Shown in pieces: positions 7,044-63,502 of a stretch of DNA of 64,000 nt (its first letter is position 1; every line of letters begins with the position of its first letter). Source of the stretch: Halomonas salipaludis. GTDB taxonomy: Bacteria > Pseudomonadota > Gammaproteobacteria > Pseudomonadales > Halomonadaceae. Position numbers and translations under genes: made by a program. Below the pieces are notes generated by a model. That model worked only from the letters and a program-made list of their open reading frames with translations, made no database searches and had not been told where the DNA came from. The stretch spans positions 62,001-126,000 of the forward strand of contig NZ_NSKB01000007.1 of NCBI RefSeq assembly GCF_002286975.1. Reading direction: 5' to 3'.

Positions 7044-8492
7044 ATGAGTCTGCGCGTGATTCTGCGCATCCTGGGACTGCTACTGATGCTGTTCAGCCTT
7101 ACCCTGGTGCCGCCGATCCTGATCTCACTGCTGTTCAACGACGGCGTGTGGGACGCCTTTGCCATCGCCATGGCGATCACCGTGGCCACCGGTGCCCTGC
7201 TCTACCTGCCCAATCGCTATGCGCGCAAGGAGCTGCGCACCCGCGACGGCTTCCTGATCGCGGCGCTGTTCTGGACGGTACTCGGCACCTTCGGCTCGCT
7301 GCCGCTGATGCTCGACGGCCCCTATGCGCTATCGGTCACCGATGCGGTGTTCGAGTCGTTCTCGGGATTGACCACCACCGGCGCCACGGTCATCACCGGC
7401 ATCGACTTCCTGCCCGAAGCGGTGCGCTACTACCGCCAGCAGCTGCAGTGGCTGGGCGGCATGGGTATCGTGGTACTGGCGGTGGCGATCCTGCCGACGC
7501 TGGGCGTTGGCGGCATGGCGCTGTACCGCACCGAGATCCCCGGGCCGCTCAAGGACTCCAAGCTGACCCCGCGCATCACCGAGACCGCCAAGGCGCTGTG
7601 GTACATCTATGCCAGCCTGACGCTGACCTGCATCATCGCCTACTGGGCCGCCGGCATGGACTGGTTCGACGCCATCGGTCACGGCTTCTCGACCGTGGCC
7701 ATCGGCGGCTTTTCCACCTACGACGCCAGTATCGGCCACTTCGACAGCGCCACCATCGAGCTGATCTGCGTGCTGTTCATGGTGATCTCGGCGATAAGCT
7801 ATAGCCTGCACTTCGCGGCCTGGCGCGAGAAACGCCTGTCCCAGTACCTGCGCGATCCGGAAGCGAGCTTCCTGCTGCTGTTCCTGCTCGGCCTGAGCGT
7901 GATCAGCGTGCTGACACTGTGGCTGACCGCCACCTACAGTGGCAGCGAGGGCCTGCGCAACGGCGTGTTCCAGGCGGTTTCCATCGCCACCACCGCCGGC
8001 TTCGGCGTCGCCGACTTCGCCGCCTGGCCCGGCGCTCTACCCTTCCTGCTGTTCGTCGCCGCCTTCGTCGGCGGCTGCTCGGGCTCCACCGGCGGTGGCA
8101 TGAAGGTGATCCGCATCATCCTGATCCTCAAGCAGGGCATGCGCGAGGTGATGCGCCTGATCCACCCCAATGCGGTGATCGCGGTCAAGGTCGGCAAGGT
8201 CAGCGTGCCCGACAGCATCGCCCAGGCGGTGTGGGGCTTCTTCTCGGTCTACGTGATGCTGTTCTTCCTGATGCTGATCGGGGTGATGGCCACCGGCGTC
8301 GACCAGGTCACCGCCTGGTCGAGCGTCGCCTCGACCCTCAACAACCTCGGCCCGGCGCTGGGTGAGGCCGCCAGCCACTACGGCGAGCTGCCCGACCTGG
8401 CCAAATGGATCCTGGTGATAGCGATGATCCTCGGCCGCCTGGAGATCTTCACCGTGCTGGTGCTGTTCACCCCGGCCTTCTGGCGGCGCTAG
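7044..8492 (+). CDS. trkH: Trk system potassium uptake protein TrkH
   Basis: Membrane pore subunit of the Trk potassium transporter, 482 residues with about ten hydrophobic segments arranged as four pore repeats. The selectivity-filter-like loops are visible as SGLTTTGATVITGID (about residue 109), FSTVAIGGFSTYD, TTAGFGVADF and STLNNLGPALG. AAGGAGCGTG lies about 8 bases upstream of the ATG. The C-terminus ends directly before a structured repeat element rather than a simple terminator. Confidence 0.97.
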   Translation: MSLRVILRILGLLLMLFSLTLVPPILISLLFNDGVWDAFAIAMAITVATGALLYLPNRYARKELRTRDGFLIAALFWTVLGTFGSLPLMLDGPYALSVTDAVFESFSGLTTTGATVITGIDFLPEAVRYYRQQLQWLGGMGIVVLAVAILPTLGVGGMALYRTEIPGPLKDSKLTPRITETAKALWYIYASLTLTCIIAYWAAGMDWFDAIGHGFSTVAIGGFSTYDASIGHFDSATIELICVLFMVISAISYSLHFAAWREKRLSQYLRDPEASFLLLFLLGLSVISVLTLWLTATYSGSEGLRNGVFQAVSIATTAGFGVADFAAWPGALPFLLFVAAFVGGCSGSTGGGMKVIRIILILKQGMREVMRLIHPNAVIAVKVGKVSVPDSIAQAVWGFFSVYVMLFFLMLIGVMATGVDQVTAWSSVASTLNNLGPALGEAASHYGELPDLAKWILVIAMILGRLEIFTVLVLFTPAFWRR

Positions 8493-8509
8493 TCGAAGAT
8501 GCTGCCAAG

Positions 8510-8700
8510 GGACGCCGGGGGCAGGTCGCAGCGAAGGTCTTTTGCCATGGGTGAGGAGCACTGCTCCGAACGGGCTGGCCATGGATGACCAGCACCGGTC
8601 CTGCAAGCGAAGCAGGATGCGAGAGCGAAGCAGGGCAAAAGTAGCGCCCAGGGATGGGTTCACAGCGCCTTCGCGTAGGCCTGCCGCCGGATCAGTCCCG
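8510..8700 (+). repeat. Structured intergenic repeat element, long copy A
   Basis: The whole 326-base gap between trkH and the TraB-family gene is dominated by this element. The ends are imperfect inverted repeats (left near 8520-8537, right near 8668-8685). Inside, CTTTTGCC (8539-8546) pairs with GGCAAAAG (8634-8641) and encloses three hairpins: GGAGCA/TGCTCC at 8555-8567, GCTGGCCAT/ATGACCAGC at 8574-8593 (one mismatch) and TCCTGC/GCAGGA at 8599-8617. A second long copy is at 27939-28100 and a compact inverted copy at 28661-28776. The type (REP/MITE-like or structured RNA) is unknown. Confidence 0.85.
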
Positions 8701-8818
8701 GTCTCAAAGCAGCTGAACGTTTACTGCGATTTACCTATCGTTGCCGTCCCCGGGTTTGGCGTGGCCAGCGGCTTTCGTGGATAATCGCCTGATCATCTTG
8801 TCGTCACAGCGAGCCTTC

Positions 8819-10060
8819 ATGACCGACCCTCAGGATCTCACCGCCAGCGCCGAGCCGGCCGCAGCGCTCAGCGGCGGACCTCGCCAGACCCTGCAGCTGG
8901 GCGATACCCGCTACACCCTGCTGGGCACCGCCCACGTCTCCAAGGAGAGCGCCGACGAGGTGCGCGCGCTGATCCGCTCCGGCGACTTCGACGCGGTGGC
9001 CATCGAGCTGTGCGCCTCGCGCCACCACAGCCTGGTGGAACCCGATGCCCTGGCCGGCCAGGACCTGTTCGAGATCTTTCGCCAGGGCAAGGCCGGCATG
9101 GTCGCTGCCAGCCTGGCGCTGGGGGCCTTCCAGCAGCGCGTCGCCGAACAGTCGGGCATCGAGCCCGGCGCCGAGATGCGCGCCGCGCTGGAGGAGACCC
9201 AGCGCCGCGACCTGCCGCTGCTGCTGATCGACCGCGATGTCGGTATCACCCTCAAGCGCATCTACGCCAATGTGCCCTGGTGGCAGCGCTTCTCGCTGTT
9301 CTCGGGGCTGCTCGGCAGCGTCATGTCGCGCCAGGAGGTTTCCGCCGCCGATATCGAACGGCTCAAGGAGGGCGACGTGCTGGAGTCGACCTTCAACGAG
9401 TTCGCCGAGCAGTCCGAGTCGCTGTATACGCCGCTGATCAGCGAGCGCGACCGCTACATGGCCCTGCGTATCGGCGAGGAGAGCCCGCCCGGGCGCTACC
9501 GCCATGTACTGGTGGTGATCGGCGCCGGCCACCTCAAGGGCATGGCCGAACATCTCGGCACGCCGCTGCCCGACGAGCCGCGGGTCGAACGCGAGGCGCT
9601 GGAAGCCACGCCACCGCGCTCCAAGGTCTGGAAGCTGCTGCCCTGGGCGATCACCGCGCTGGTGCTGACCGGCTTCGCCATCGGTTTTTCGCGCAATACC
9701 GAACTCGGCTGGCAGCTGGTCGGCGAGTGGTTCCTGATCAACGGCGTGCTATCGGCGGCGGCCACCACCGTCGCCCTGGCCCACCCGGTGACCATCCTGG
9801 CGACCTTCTTCGCCGCCCCGCTGACTTCGCTCAATCCCACTATCGGCGCCGGCTTCGTCGCCGCCGGGGTCGAGCTGTTCATGCGCAAGCCCAAGGTCGG
9901 CGACTTCGCCCATCTGCGCCACGATGTCACCTCGCTGCGCGGCTGGTGGCGCAACCGGGTGTCGCGCACGCTGCTGGTGTTCCTGCTCGCCACCCTCGGC
10001 TCGGCGGCGGGCACCTGGGTGGCAGGCTTCCGCATCGCCGGGGCGCTATTCGGTAGCTGA
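8819..10060 (+). CDS. TraB/PrgY-like family membrane protein
   Basis: 413 residues. The N-terminal half carries the TraB/PrgY/GumN-type domain: TLLGTAHVSKES near residue 38, AIELCASRH near 63 and VIGAGHLKGM near 235. The C-terminal part has several hydrophobic segments (WAITALVLTGFAIGFS, the loop around LINGVLSAAATTVALAHP, and TLLVFLLATLGSAAGTWVAG). PrgY inhibits pheromone signalling in Enterococcus; the fold is related to proposed metalloproteases, with conserved His and Glu. The bacterial function of this branch is not known. I chose the ATG at 8819 because earlier ATGs extend into repeat-adjacent sequence. Its 3' end overlaps tapT convergently by 15 bases. Confidence 0.85.
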   Translation: MTDPQDLTASAEPAAALSGGPRQTLQLGDTRYTLLGTAHVSKESADEVRALIRSGDFDAVAIELCASRHHSLVEPDALAGQDLFEIFRQGKAGMVAASLALGAFQQRVAEQSGIEPGAEMRAALEETQRRDLPLLLIDRDVGITLKRIYANVPWWQRFSLFSGLLGSVMSRQEVSAADIERLKEGDVLESTFNEFAEQSESLYTPLISERDRYMALRIGEESPPGRYRHVLVVIGAGHLKGMAEHLGTPLPDEPRVEREALEATPPRSKVWKLLPWAITALVLTGFAIGFSRNTELGWQLVGEWFLINGVLSAAATTVALAHPVTILATFFAAPLTSLNPTIGAGFVAAGVELFMRKPKVGDFAHLRHDVTSLRGWWRNRVSRTLLVFLLATLGSAAGTWVAGFRIAGALFGS

Positions 10061-26797: not shown

Positions 26798-27895
26798 GTG
26801 CCCACTGCAAGCTTTGCCCAACTGCCCAACGCCCAACCCACGGCGGACATCATTCGCAAGGACATCCTTGCCAACCCTGGTTTTGGCCGCTATTTCAGCG
26901 ACCATATGGCGCATATCCGCTGGACCCTCGATGCCGGCTGGCACGGCCACGAGGTGCGCCCCTACGGTCCGCTGACCCTCGACCCCGCCGCTGCGGTGCT
27001 GCACTACGGCCAGGAGATCTTCGAGGGCATCAAGGCCTACCGCCACGCCGACGGCTCGGTGTGGACCTTCCGCCCCGAAAAGAACGCCGAGCGCTTCCGC
27101 CGCAGCGCACGCCGGCTGGCGCTGCCTGAGCTCTCCGACGAGGACTTCATCGGCTCGCTCAAGGCGCTGCTCGCCCAGGACCATGAGTGGGTACCGACAC
27201 CGGCCAGCGAAGCCGACGAGTGCAGCCTCTACCTGCGCCCGTTCATGATCGCCAGCGAGACCTTCCTCGGCGTGCGCCCCTCCCACGAGGTCGACTACTA
27301 CGTGATCGCCTCGCCGGCAGCGGCCTACTTCAAGGGCGGCGTCGAGCCGGTGTCGATCTGGCTGTCGGCCAACTACAAGCGCGCCGCCGCCGGCGGCACC
27401 GGCTTCGCCAAGTGCGGCGGCAACTACGCCGCCTCGCTGGCCGCCCAGAAGGAAGCCGAGGCCCACGGCTGCGGCCAGGTCGCCTTCCTCGACGCCGCCG
27501 AGAACAAGTGGATCGAAGAGCTGGGCGGCATGAACCTGTTCTTCGTGTTCAAGGACGGCCGTATCGTCACCCCCAAGCTGACCGGCACCATCCTCGAGGG
27601 CGTGACCCGCGACTCGGTGCTGACCCTGGCCCGCGACGCCGGCCTGCAGCCGGAAGAGCGCCATATCAGCATCGACGAGTGGCGCGATGGCGCCGCCTCC
27701 GGCGAGATCACCGAGGTCTTCGCCTGCGGCACCGCCGCGGTGATCACCCCGGTGGGCGAGCTGGTCGGCGAGGACGAGCGCATCCGCTGCCAGCCCAGCG
27801 ACAACCCGGTGGCCAAGCAGATCCGCCGCACCCTGCTCGACCTGCAGTACGGCCGCGCCGAGGACACCCACGGCTGGCTGACCCGGCTGGTGTAA
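26798..27895 (+). CDS. ilvE: Branched-chain amino acid aminotransferase
   Basis: PLP enzyme of fold type IV that interconverts leucine, isoleucine and valine with their keto acids. The 365-residue length and features match the longer (type II) IlvE branch: HYGQEIFEGIKAYRH (about 68), YLRPFMIASE (about 145), the PLP lysine in GTGFAKCGGNYAAS (about 205), ELGGMNLFFVF (about 241) and EVFACGTAAVITPVG (about 306). The start is GTG, behind AGCGGAGACC. It sits between pepA and holC-valS, which are usually contiguous in related bacteria. Confidence 0.95.
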   Translation: MPTASFAQLPNAQPTADIIRKDILANPGFGRYFSDHMAHIRWTLDAGWHGHEVRPYGPLTLDPAAAVLHYGQEIFEGIKAYRHADGSVWTFRPEKNAERFRRSARRLALPELSDEDFIGSLKALLAQDHEWVPTPASEADECSLYLRPFMIASETFLGVRPSHEVDYYVIASPAAAYFKGGVEPVSIWLSANYKRAAAGGTGFAKCGGNYAASLAAQKEAEAHGCGQVAFLDAAENKWIEELGGMNLFFVFKDGRIVTPKLTGTILEGVTRDSVLTLARDAGLQPEERHISIDEWRDGAASGEITEVFACGTAAVITPVGELVGEDERIRCQPSDNPVAKQIRRTLLDLQYGRAEDTHGWLTRLV

Positions 27896-27938
27896 TAGCA
27901 GCTCTCACAGCGGTTACGCCCCCCACCGACGTGGCGGG

Positions 27939-28100
27939 GCGCCGCCGGGCGGGTCGTAGCGGAGGTTTGCGCCATGGGTGAGGAGGATTCCTCCGAACGG
28001 GCTGGCCATGGATGGCCAGCCCCGGTCCTGCAAGCGGAGCAGGATGCGAGAGCGAAGCAGGGCGCAAGTAGTGCCCCCTCGTCGGCCCTGTCGCCGGGTG
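27939..28100 (+). repeat. Structured intergenic repeat element, long copy B
   Basis: Second long copy, in the ilvE-holC gap and in the same orientation as copy A. TTGCGCC (27967-27973) pairs with GGCGCAA (28061-28067) where copy A has TTTTGCC/GGCAAAA. The first inner hairpin is GGAGGA/TCCTCC (27982-27994) where copy A has GGAGCA/TGCTCC. The second is a perfect GCTGGCCAT/ATGGCCAGC (28001-28020), and the third TCCTGC/GCAGGA (28026-28044) is conserved. The right arm is shortened relative to copy A. Confidence 0.85.
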
Positions 28101-28147
28101 AACCCCAGCCCTCGGCGTCACAATCAGCACACCTTTTGGCGAGCCGT

Positions 28148-28603
28148 ATGACACAGGTTGATTTCTACGTCCTACCCGACACCACGCTGGAGGCCCGGCT
28201 GGCCTTCGCCTGCCGGCTCACCGAGACCATCCAGCGCAAGGGCTACCGCCTGCACCTGCACGCCGAGGATGAGGCCATGGCCCGTCAGCTCGACGAGCTG
28301 CTGTGGACCTTCCGCCCCGACGCCTACGTGCCCCACGCCCTGGCCGGCAGCGAGATGGCCAGCCAGGTGCCGGTGGTGATCGGCTGGCAGGGGCCGCCGG
28401 ATCCCGCCGAGGAGCACCCCCAGGCGATGCTCAACCTGCATCCCGAGATCCCCGAATGGTTCTCGCGCTTCGAACGAGTCGCCGAGATCATCAACCAGCA
28501 CCAGGAGGTGCTGAGGGCCAAGCGCGCCTGCTGGAAGACCTACAAGGACCGCGGCTACCCGGTCAAGGCGCACCAGTTGGCGGGGCAAGAGGGTCGAGGG
28601 TGA
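28148..28603 (+). CDS. holC: DNA polymerase III chi subunit
   Basis: Chi links the clamp loader (through psi) to SSB on the lagging strand. The 151-residue protein has the HolC pattern: VDFYVLPDTTLEARLAFACR at the start, HLHAEDEAMARQLDELLWTF near residue 38 and MLNLHPEIPEWFSRFERVAE near 95. The ATG at 28148 is chosen because the longer open frame upstream is made of repeat copy B sequence. holC upstream of valS is the standard order in gammaproteobacteria. Confidence 0.95.
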   Translation: MTQVDFYVLPDTTLEARLAFACRLTETIQRKGYRLHLHAEDEAMARQLDELLWTFRPDAYVPHALAGSEMASQVPVVIGWQGPPDPAEEHPQAMLNLHPEIPEWFSRFERVAEIINQHQEVLRAKRACWKTYKDRGYPVKAHQLAGQEGRG

Positions 28604-28660: not shown

Positions 28661-28776
28661 CGGGGCTGATCCGTCGACAGGTCTTCGCGGAGGCGCTGTA
28701 AACCATCCATGGGCGCTACCGATGCCATCCCTGGCATCGGAACCTCCGCTACGACCTGTCCCCGGCGCCCCCCGCG
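28661..28776 (-). repeat. Structured intergenic repeat element, compact copy C (inverted)
   Basis: Fills much of the 321-base gap between holC and valS. The 18-bp end arms at 28676-28693 and 28743-28760 match as an inverted repeat at 16 positions or nearly so. The flanking sequences correspond to the ends of copies A and B in inverse orientation. The three-hairpin core is absent and replaced by a perfect palindrome, CCGATGCCA/TGGCATCGG, at 28719-28740. Confidence 0.8.
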
Positions 28777-63311: not shown

Positions 63312-63358
63312 CGGCGCTCCGCGCCGGCCCCGGGCTTCGAGCAGCGAGCCGCTAACGG

Positions 63359-63442
63359 CCCGAAGCCCGAAGCCCGAAGCCCGAAGCCCGAAGCCCGAAG
63401 CCCGAAGCCCGAAGCCCGAAGCCCGAAGCCCGAAGCCCGAAG
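63359..63442. repeat. Twelve tandem copies of a 7-bp unit (CCCGAAG)
   Basis: A perfect array of 84 bases in the 191-base gap between nrdA and nrdB. The reverse complement of its sequence, CGGGCTTCG, occurs once upstream (63331-63339), so the array can form a hairpin with it. The copy number is likely to vary by replication slippage. Confidence 0.97.
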
Positions 63443-63502
63443 CCAATATTTGACCACCGGCGTCATGCGATAAACGCCACCAGCGAAGAACAGGACAGAC
63501 AA

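Follow-up and report, generated by a model that had tools for sequence, protein, structure and literature searches.

The intergenic element at positions 8508-8700 of the window, the whole 64,000-nucleotide stretch of Halomonas salipaludis DNA that was analysed (from a genome of 5.48 Mb in 33 contigs), belongs to a dispersed family of forks whose two prongs both present an ANGGAN hexaloop on the same strand. The family is real, widespread, structured and mobile, and the Yersinia palindromic repeat YPAL is a known branch of it. The loops predict that CsrA dimers bind RNA of that strand, and the copies are likely scattered docks behind genes, a reading to which we assign a probability of roughly 0.6. 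Docking of CsrA, as a predicted function, is the best supported. Fork copies would be transcribed together with the upstream gene, one CsrA dimer would bridge the two prongs of a fork, the summed copies would titrate CsrA or bring host mRNAs under its control, and a trans-acting enzyme would spread the unit.

The window holds three copies, two long (A and B) and one short (C). Copy A, delimited by DNA search and alignments (8508-8700, plus strand), has trkH (7044-8492) on one side and a TraB/PrgY gene, with its ATG at 8819, on the other, both assigned by Pfam. Its outer stem joins 8509-8537 to 8668-8699. Within this, a closing stem pairs CTTTTGCC at 8539-8546 with GGCAAAAG at 8634-8641 (the TTTTGCC and GGCAAAA of the first-pass annotation) around three hairpins: GGAGC/GCTCC at 8555-8567 (helix 5), a second at 8571-8597 with a CsrA-type hexaloop ATGGAT at 8581-8586, and CCTGC/GCAGG at 8600-8616 (helix 7), which shows almost no variation among copies. 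A fourth hairpin, HP-B, follows at 8644-8666 (helices 9-10), with a hexaloop AGGGAT at 8650-8655; its 3' strand carries a bulge, TTCAC, that is conserved. Copy B (27936-28100, plus strand) is a long form without HP-B, its single hexaloop being ATGGAT at 28008-28013, and is flanked by an aminotransferase class IV gene (26798-27895) and by holC (ATG at 28148), again by Pfam. The holC open frame (27974-28603) extends upstream into copy B, where ATGGGTGAGG is an alternative start. Copy C (28661-28772, minus strand) is a short form detected by covariance model R1 at 118.4 bits (E 4e-27); it carries AGGGAT at 28727-28732 and ATGGAT at 28705-28710 on the minus strand, and runs antisense to the two genes that enclose it, holC and valS.

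The first-pass annotation, made from the sequence of this stretch, had described copies at 8510-8700 and 27939-28100 with a common cloverleaf fold of three hairpins and had suggested that the element may be a mobile element or a structured RNA, of a family that it did not recognise. Both copies are present, 92% identical over 106 nt, and the pair changes that it listed are correct, from the closing stem of copy A to TTGCGCC/GGCGCAA in copy B and from GGAGCA/TGCTCC to GGAGGA/TCCTCC in the first hairpin. Its three hairpins stand as well; it had missed the outer stem that encloses them, the conserved fourth hairpin at 8644-8666 (which copy B has lost), the third copy on the minus strand at 28661-28772, and the commoner short form of about 112 nt. 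The CsrA-type loops and the spread across Gammaproteobacteria go beyond its account.

Used as a DNA query, copy A found at least 49 matching stretches in its own genome (40 of 114 candidates scored), and R1, which was built from 14 short copies, picked out at least 96 places with E no higher than 1e-3 (of 5449 candidates at first look, 150 were scored). Once places duplicated by position were taken out, 103 distinct copies were examined, 71 of them short and 32 long. The forms, of about 112 nt without the inner hairpins and about 190 nt, have in common an outer stem that is about 24 pairs long. Inside it the short form carries HP-A and HP-B; in the long form three hairpins replace the tip of HP-A, and the middle one again bears the HP-A-type loop. 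Four copies (L005, L010, L011 and L016) share additional outer repeats, GATCGCAGTTGCC ... CTGCGATA, and for that reason the mobile unit in Halomonas may be about 240 nt long.

Covariation of the paired columns supports the annotation's suggestion of selection on structure in long, short and distant copies alike. In a plain MAFFT alignment of 27 long copies (A1, made without a structure model and without L022 and L029-L032, which are truncated or odd), 25 of 59 pairs change on both sides, including 16 of the 23 pairs of the outer stem (helices 1-3) and 5 of the 7 of the closing stem (helix 4); the two-sided cells number 108, against 27.6 +- 4.6 after shuffling (0 of 500 shuffles as high). The corresponding counts are 334 against 79.6 for 72 distinct short copies (A3, two identical rows removed) and 410 against 113.7 for 28 distant copies (A7), both again with 0 of 500, in alignments that were made on a model of the tested structure and are biased towards it. 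The signal is lost once pairing partners are slid by 1-3 columns. Independent variation of the paired columns, which the annotation had named as evidence against structural constraint, was looked for and not found. Folding of single sequences gives weak results against shuffles, with z of -0.94 for copy A and -1.67 for copy B on their own strand; the opposite strand folds better (-2.92 and -2.03). The structural case thus depends on covariation and not on single-sequence folding.

The loops agree closely with the CsrA motif. The RsmE site is an ANGGAN hexaloop with variable N (PMC7652899), and the forks follow the same rule, with A and GGA fixed, N free and the loop on a stem, with few exceptions. 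In the short copies HP-A has a hexaloop in 70 of 72, with GGA in 70 of these 70 and the first A in 69; the N positions read T46/G24 and T60/A7/C3. HP-B has GGA in 72 of 72 and a six-base loop in 54, where the last N is T22/C11/G11/A10. The second hairpin of the long copies reads C-ANGGAN-G in 27 of 27 (first N T in 25, C in 1 and A in 1), and their HP-B reads CAGGGAN in 26 of 27, with CCC/GGG changed to TAC/GTA in three. In the distant set HP-B has CANGGANG in 28 of 28, and HP-A has a hexaloop in 26 of 28, all 26 with GGA, the remaining two being pentaloops. Loop variation thus falls almost wholly on the two N of ANGGAN, while A and GGA are near-constant. Two forward relatives in a further alignment, A4 (46 distinct rows, reverse-strand matches excluded from this statement), have an HP-A without GGA. 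As a control within the window, ANGGAN was found in 0 of 88 hexaloop hairpins outside the three copies.

The spacing and context of the loops can also be compared with those of CsrA sites. An exact match to the SELEX consensus, RUACARGGAUGU (PMC7652899), is present in 8 of the 28 distant forks, or in 12 of 28 when its first base is disregarded; it is rare in Halomonas (none of 72 short copies, one of 27 long ones). HP-A stems are longer than the SELEX hairpins, most of which have four or fewer pairs. A CsrA dimer bridges two sites 10-63 nt apart (PMC7652899), and the loops of the short form are spaced at 22-23 nt in 60 of 74 rows, inside this range; those of the long form lie 69-71 nt apart in 26 of 27 copies, or 66-68 nt from GGA to GGA, slightly above it. 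The genome has one csrA match, a canonical one with Leu4 and Arg44 present. A separate feature of HP-B (window 8656-8666) is that its UUYAC bulge and the AGC/RGC at its base are kept in Halomonas, in distant genera and in YPAL, and for these CsrA offers no account.

Which strand is under selection can be judged from mispairs and from orientation. G-U outnumber A-C mispairs by 271 to 17 in the short copies of the genome (40:17 without the wobble-rich pairs) and by 44 to 1 among the distant forks. For the long form, the ratio of 118:15 falls to 20:15 without the wobble-rich pairs, which is no signal. At two positions G-U is fixed, in 70 of 72 short copies. None of the 103 copies of the genome lies inside a gene, and where both neighbouring genes run in one direction the GGA strand is sense in 60 copies, against 16 in which it is antisense (p 4e-7), the sense copies beginning a median of 38 nt downstream of the upstream stop codon. 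The excess of G-U over A-C, the invariant loop bases and the 60:16 sense bias point to RNA of one strand, and RNA-level selection on the GGA strand is likely in Halomonas. It is less certain beyond, because an orientation bias was not seen in distant genomes: a distant mixed set gave 8:8 (L299, identical in place to L270, and L314 excluded), with a crude ORF caller that placed 28 of 46 copies over ORFs, and one distant genome, G146, gave 4:3 with a trained gene caller that put 0 of 15 copies in genes.

Comparison of gene junctions shows that close species have gained and lost forks at individual sites. The junction after trkH was followed through 80 related loci, one of which (L185) stops before the junction, and among the 79 counted a single one (L170) carries a full fork; Halomonas socia (L150) has a fork remnant there in the opposite orientation. 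The idea that the fork is a cis-regulatory element conserved with trkH or traB was rejected because only this one locus has a full fork. When 11 junctions were compared with 800 kb of H. socia, two were clean empty sites and one held an identical copy, the rest having diverged, inverted or truncated copies. Two more sites in five genomes show forks that were inverted in place and forks that were exchanged for another subfamily. The dispersed copies, the two empty sites among 11 and the single full fork among 79 loci are in keeping with a mobile element. It has the features of a MITE, terminal inverted repeats (the arms) and sites both filled and empty; the two empty sites show no clear target duplication. 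As to the annotation's choice between a mobile element and a structured RNA, the best answer is both; of the mobile types that it had offered, the MITE type is supported and REP membership is not.

Several further observations concern these junctions. At L111, L143 and L144 the fork at the same junction is flipped, or exchanged for another subfamily, between species, and at L143 some relatives have an additional hairpin nested within HP-A. A second repeat (GGCTCTGTCCGAAAACTGGCTGCGCTCGGCC...) occupies two shared junctions in Halomonas sp. ML-15 (L151, after trkH, and L338), and a similar sequence flanks a copy of our own genome, L007. A search of a phage collection gave no match, and plasmid and phage records gave one Halomonas record with weak partial matches. 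The sole RAYT found (L042, G000:C1:741091-744417), a RAYT-type Y1 transposase gene, is bordered by a long array of GTAGGAGCGG REP pairs, which belong to another family of repeats; fork matches near it are at chance level only, and a role for this RAYT as driver is not supported.

Forks extend well beyond the genome of origin. R1 has matches in 27 of the 58 genomes around it (itself counted), including 5 of the 5 genomes searched of its genus, and a wider model, R2, in 42 of 229 gammaproteobacterial genomes (again counting our own), seven of them with at least 16 matches (16 candidates scored in each). A csrA match was present in 38 of the 42 fork-bearing genomes versus 156 of the 187 others (tallied by hand), which is no significant association (p 0.34); one genome, G252 (98% complete), has 8 forks and no csrA match. 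Copies in distant genomes share mainly a core of about 60 nt, and each has its own near-perfect inverted-repeat arms. The 15 copies of G146 have stems of 14-37 pairs (one mismatch allowed), and among 14 of equal prong spacing core identity is 77% and arm identity 38%. A query with one copy against the whole of G146, the sole genome of its genus in that search, matched other copies over the core alone, and its arm was unmatched at any other place, so that this query gave no support to arms copied from DNA elsewhere in the genome. Private arms are not universal, since two copies in G124 share arms and flanks, and in Halomonas the arms are part of the repeated unit, with private arms in some copies. 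Because each distant copy has its own inverted arms, these probably arise, or are rewritten, separately in each copy, perhaps through an inverted duplication of the target.

The annotation had not recognised the family, which is in part known. RU-2, or YPAL, is a 168-bp palindromic repeat of Yersinia (PMC2759123, Table 1b). With nhmmer, a profile of the 28 distant forks (A7) matches RU-2 at 47.0 bits on the GGA strand, A6 at 35.6 bits and the Halomonas short form (A3) at 22.0 bits; shuffled RU-2 gave no match. Like the forks, RU-2 has both ANGGAN loops, CAAGGATG and CATGGATG, 24 nt apart, and a UUUAC bulge, and YPAL is an intergenic palindrome that is described as mobile and as having a possible effect on upstream transcripts (PMC2229807). 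The likeness lies mainly in the core, whereas the Halomonas forks have their own arms and forms of about 112 and about 190 nt. A YPAL element would be expected to have a target duplication of 3-26 bp; no clear one was seen at the two Halomonas empty sites. CsrA is absent from PMC2759123, no paper naming YPAL, CsrA and Yersinia together was found in the literature searched, and no title among the matches listed for CsrA and repeats reports dispersed CsrA-binding repeats. The fork family is therefore partly known, as YPAL, and neither its Halomonas form nor a CsrA reading of it was met in the literature searched.

Other families resemble the forks more loosely. Ysr224 (RF02770), a Yersinia sRNA, has a consensus that matches the RU-2 reverse complement over 107 nt at 98% identity and is therefore YPAL on the other strand, the family being annotated opposite to the GGA loops. 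It is multi-copy in Y. ruckeri (PMC12112432). The best fork scores 39 bits with the Ysr224 model (cut-off 70), on the strand opposite to GGA, and the cut-off was passed in 0 of 19 genomes searched. TwoAYGGAY (RF01731) has loops of the (C)AYGGAY(G) type on two hairpins, enclosed by a poorly conserved external stem (PMC4333381), an architecture like that of the forks, although fork loops are ANGGAN and only in part AYGGAY. No match to RF01731 was found at copy A (8480-8800, E up to 10), and the best fork seen, a distant copy, reached 36.8 bits on the GGA strand, below the cut-off of 43. For TwoAYGGAY and the reverse complement of Bacillaceae-1, Gardner and Eldai predicted CsrA binding from this same motif (PMC4333381). 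At gathering level Rfam has no match for the element in the window or in 22 loci, and subthreshold microRNA matches were dismissed as long-hairpin artefacts. The forks also share GGA hairpin loops with CsrB, RsmY and RsmZ, RNAs that titrate CsrA. RsmY and RsmZ come from free-standing sRNA genes and carry many GGA sites. The same is true of CsrB (PMC7652899), whereas the forks have two sites per copy and about a hundred copies. With REP/RAYT systems they share dispersal as extragenic palindromes.

Three other explanations have to be weighed against CsrA docking. The element might be a strand-specific hairpin of single-stranded DNA without RNA function, mobilised by an enzyme that recognises the top strand in its folded state, loops included. 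Enzymes of the IS200/IS605 and attC systems read DNA in this way. Such an element would be expected to produce a comparable strand asymmetry, invariant loops would suit recognition by an enzyme equally well, and the empty sites at 2 of 11 junctions, the in-place inversions, the subfamily replacements, the copy-specific near-perfect arms around a common core and the unbiased orientation in distant genomes all agree with it. However, no associated transposase was found, the sole Y1 transposase match lying among other REPs; loop variation falls mainly on the two positions that CsrA leaves free; the fixed G-U pairs (two positions, 70 of 72) are natural in RNA and poor in DNA; and orientation in the own genome is biased 60:16. 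We consider this explanation unlikely, at about one chance in a handful.

Rather less probable still is a palindromic MITE of the YPAL type whose RNA stem, independently of CsrA, protects or destabilises the 3' end of the upstream mRNA. That YPAL/RU-2 is kin, that sense copies start so close behind the upstream stop (median 38 nt), and that YPAL might affect the stability of upstream transcripts according to a review (PMC2229807) would fit such a stem, but it leaves the ANGGAN loops, their variable N and the presence of two loops in both forms unaccounted for. Finally, correction of quasi-palindromes by template switching could keep arms complementary and mimic compensatory change in the absence of selection, and the distant arms are indeed nearly all Watson-Crick and differ between copies. 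A strand-symmetric correction would not be expected to yield more G-U than A-C (271:17 and 44:1), stems change while loops and bulge stay constant, and the orientation bias in the own genome would need selection in addition; we regard this explanation as very improbable. Docking of CsrA remains the preferred reading. An extended version of it is tentative and, on balance, doubtful: across the class, mobile RNA forks with YPAL as one branch would spread CsrA-dimer docks, a core of about 60 nt inserting behind genes and building its own palindrome by inverted target duplication, and the copies would form a distributed sponge that adjusts CsrA activity to the summed transcription of the host genes.

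If CsrA does bind the forks, the Csr network would gain, beside the dedicated sponge RNAs, many mobile and multi-copy sites across Gammaproteobacteria, for which the loci scanned gave nothing above an Rfam cut-off, and the binding site of a global regulator would be a mobile genomic repeat. YPAL would then have a function, as would the widely annotated Ysr224, whose annotation reads the wrong strand for it, and CsrA binding would account for dispersed palindromes that keep two similar loops despite changing stems. The copy-specific arms pose a separate question, namely how a 60-nt core gains a new palindrome each time. Two minor observations complete the description: a tandem array of the heptamer GCCCGAA lies at 63358-63446, close to the window end, and in G146 the gene for RNase P RNA has a fork (L307) some 65 nt away.
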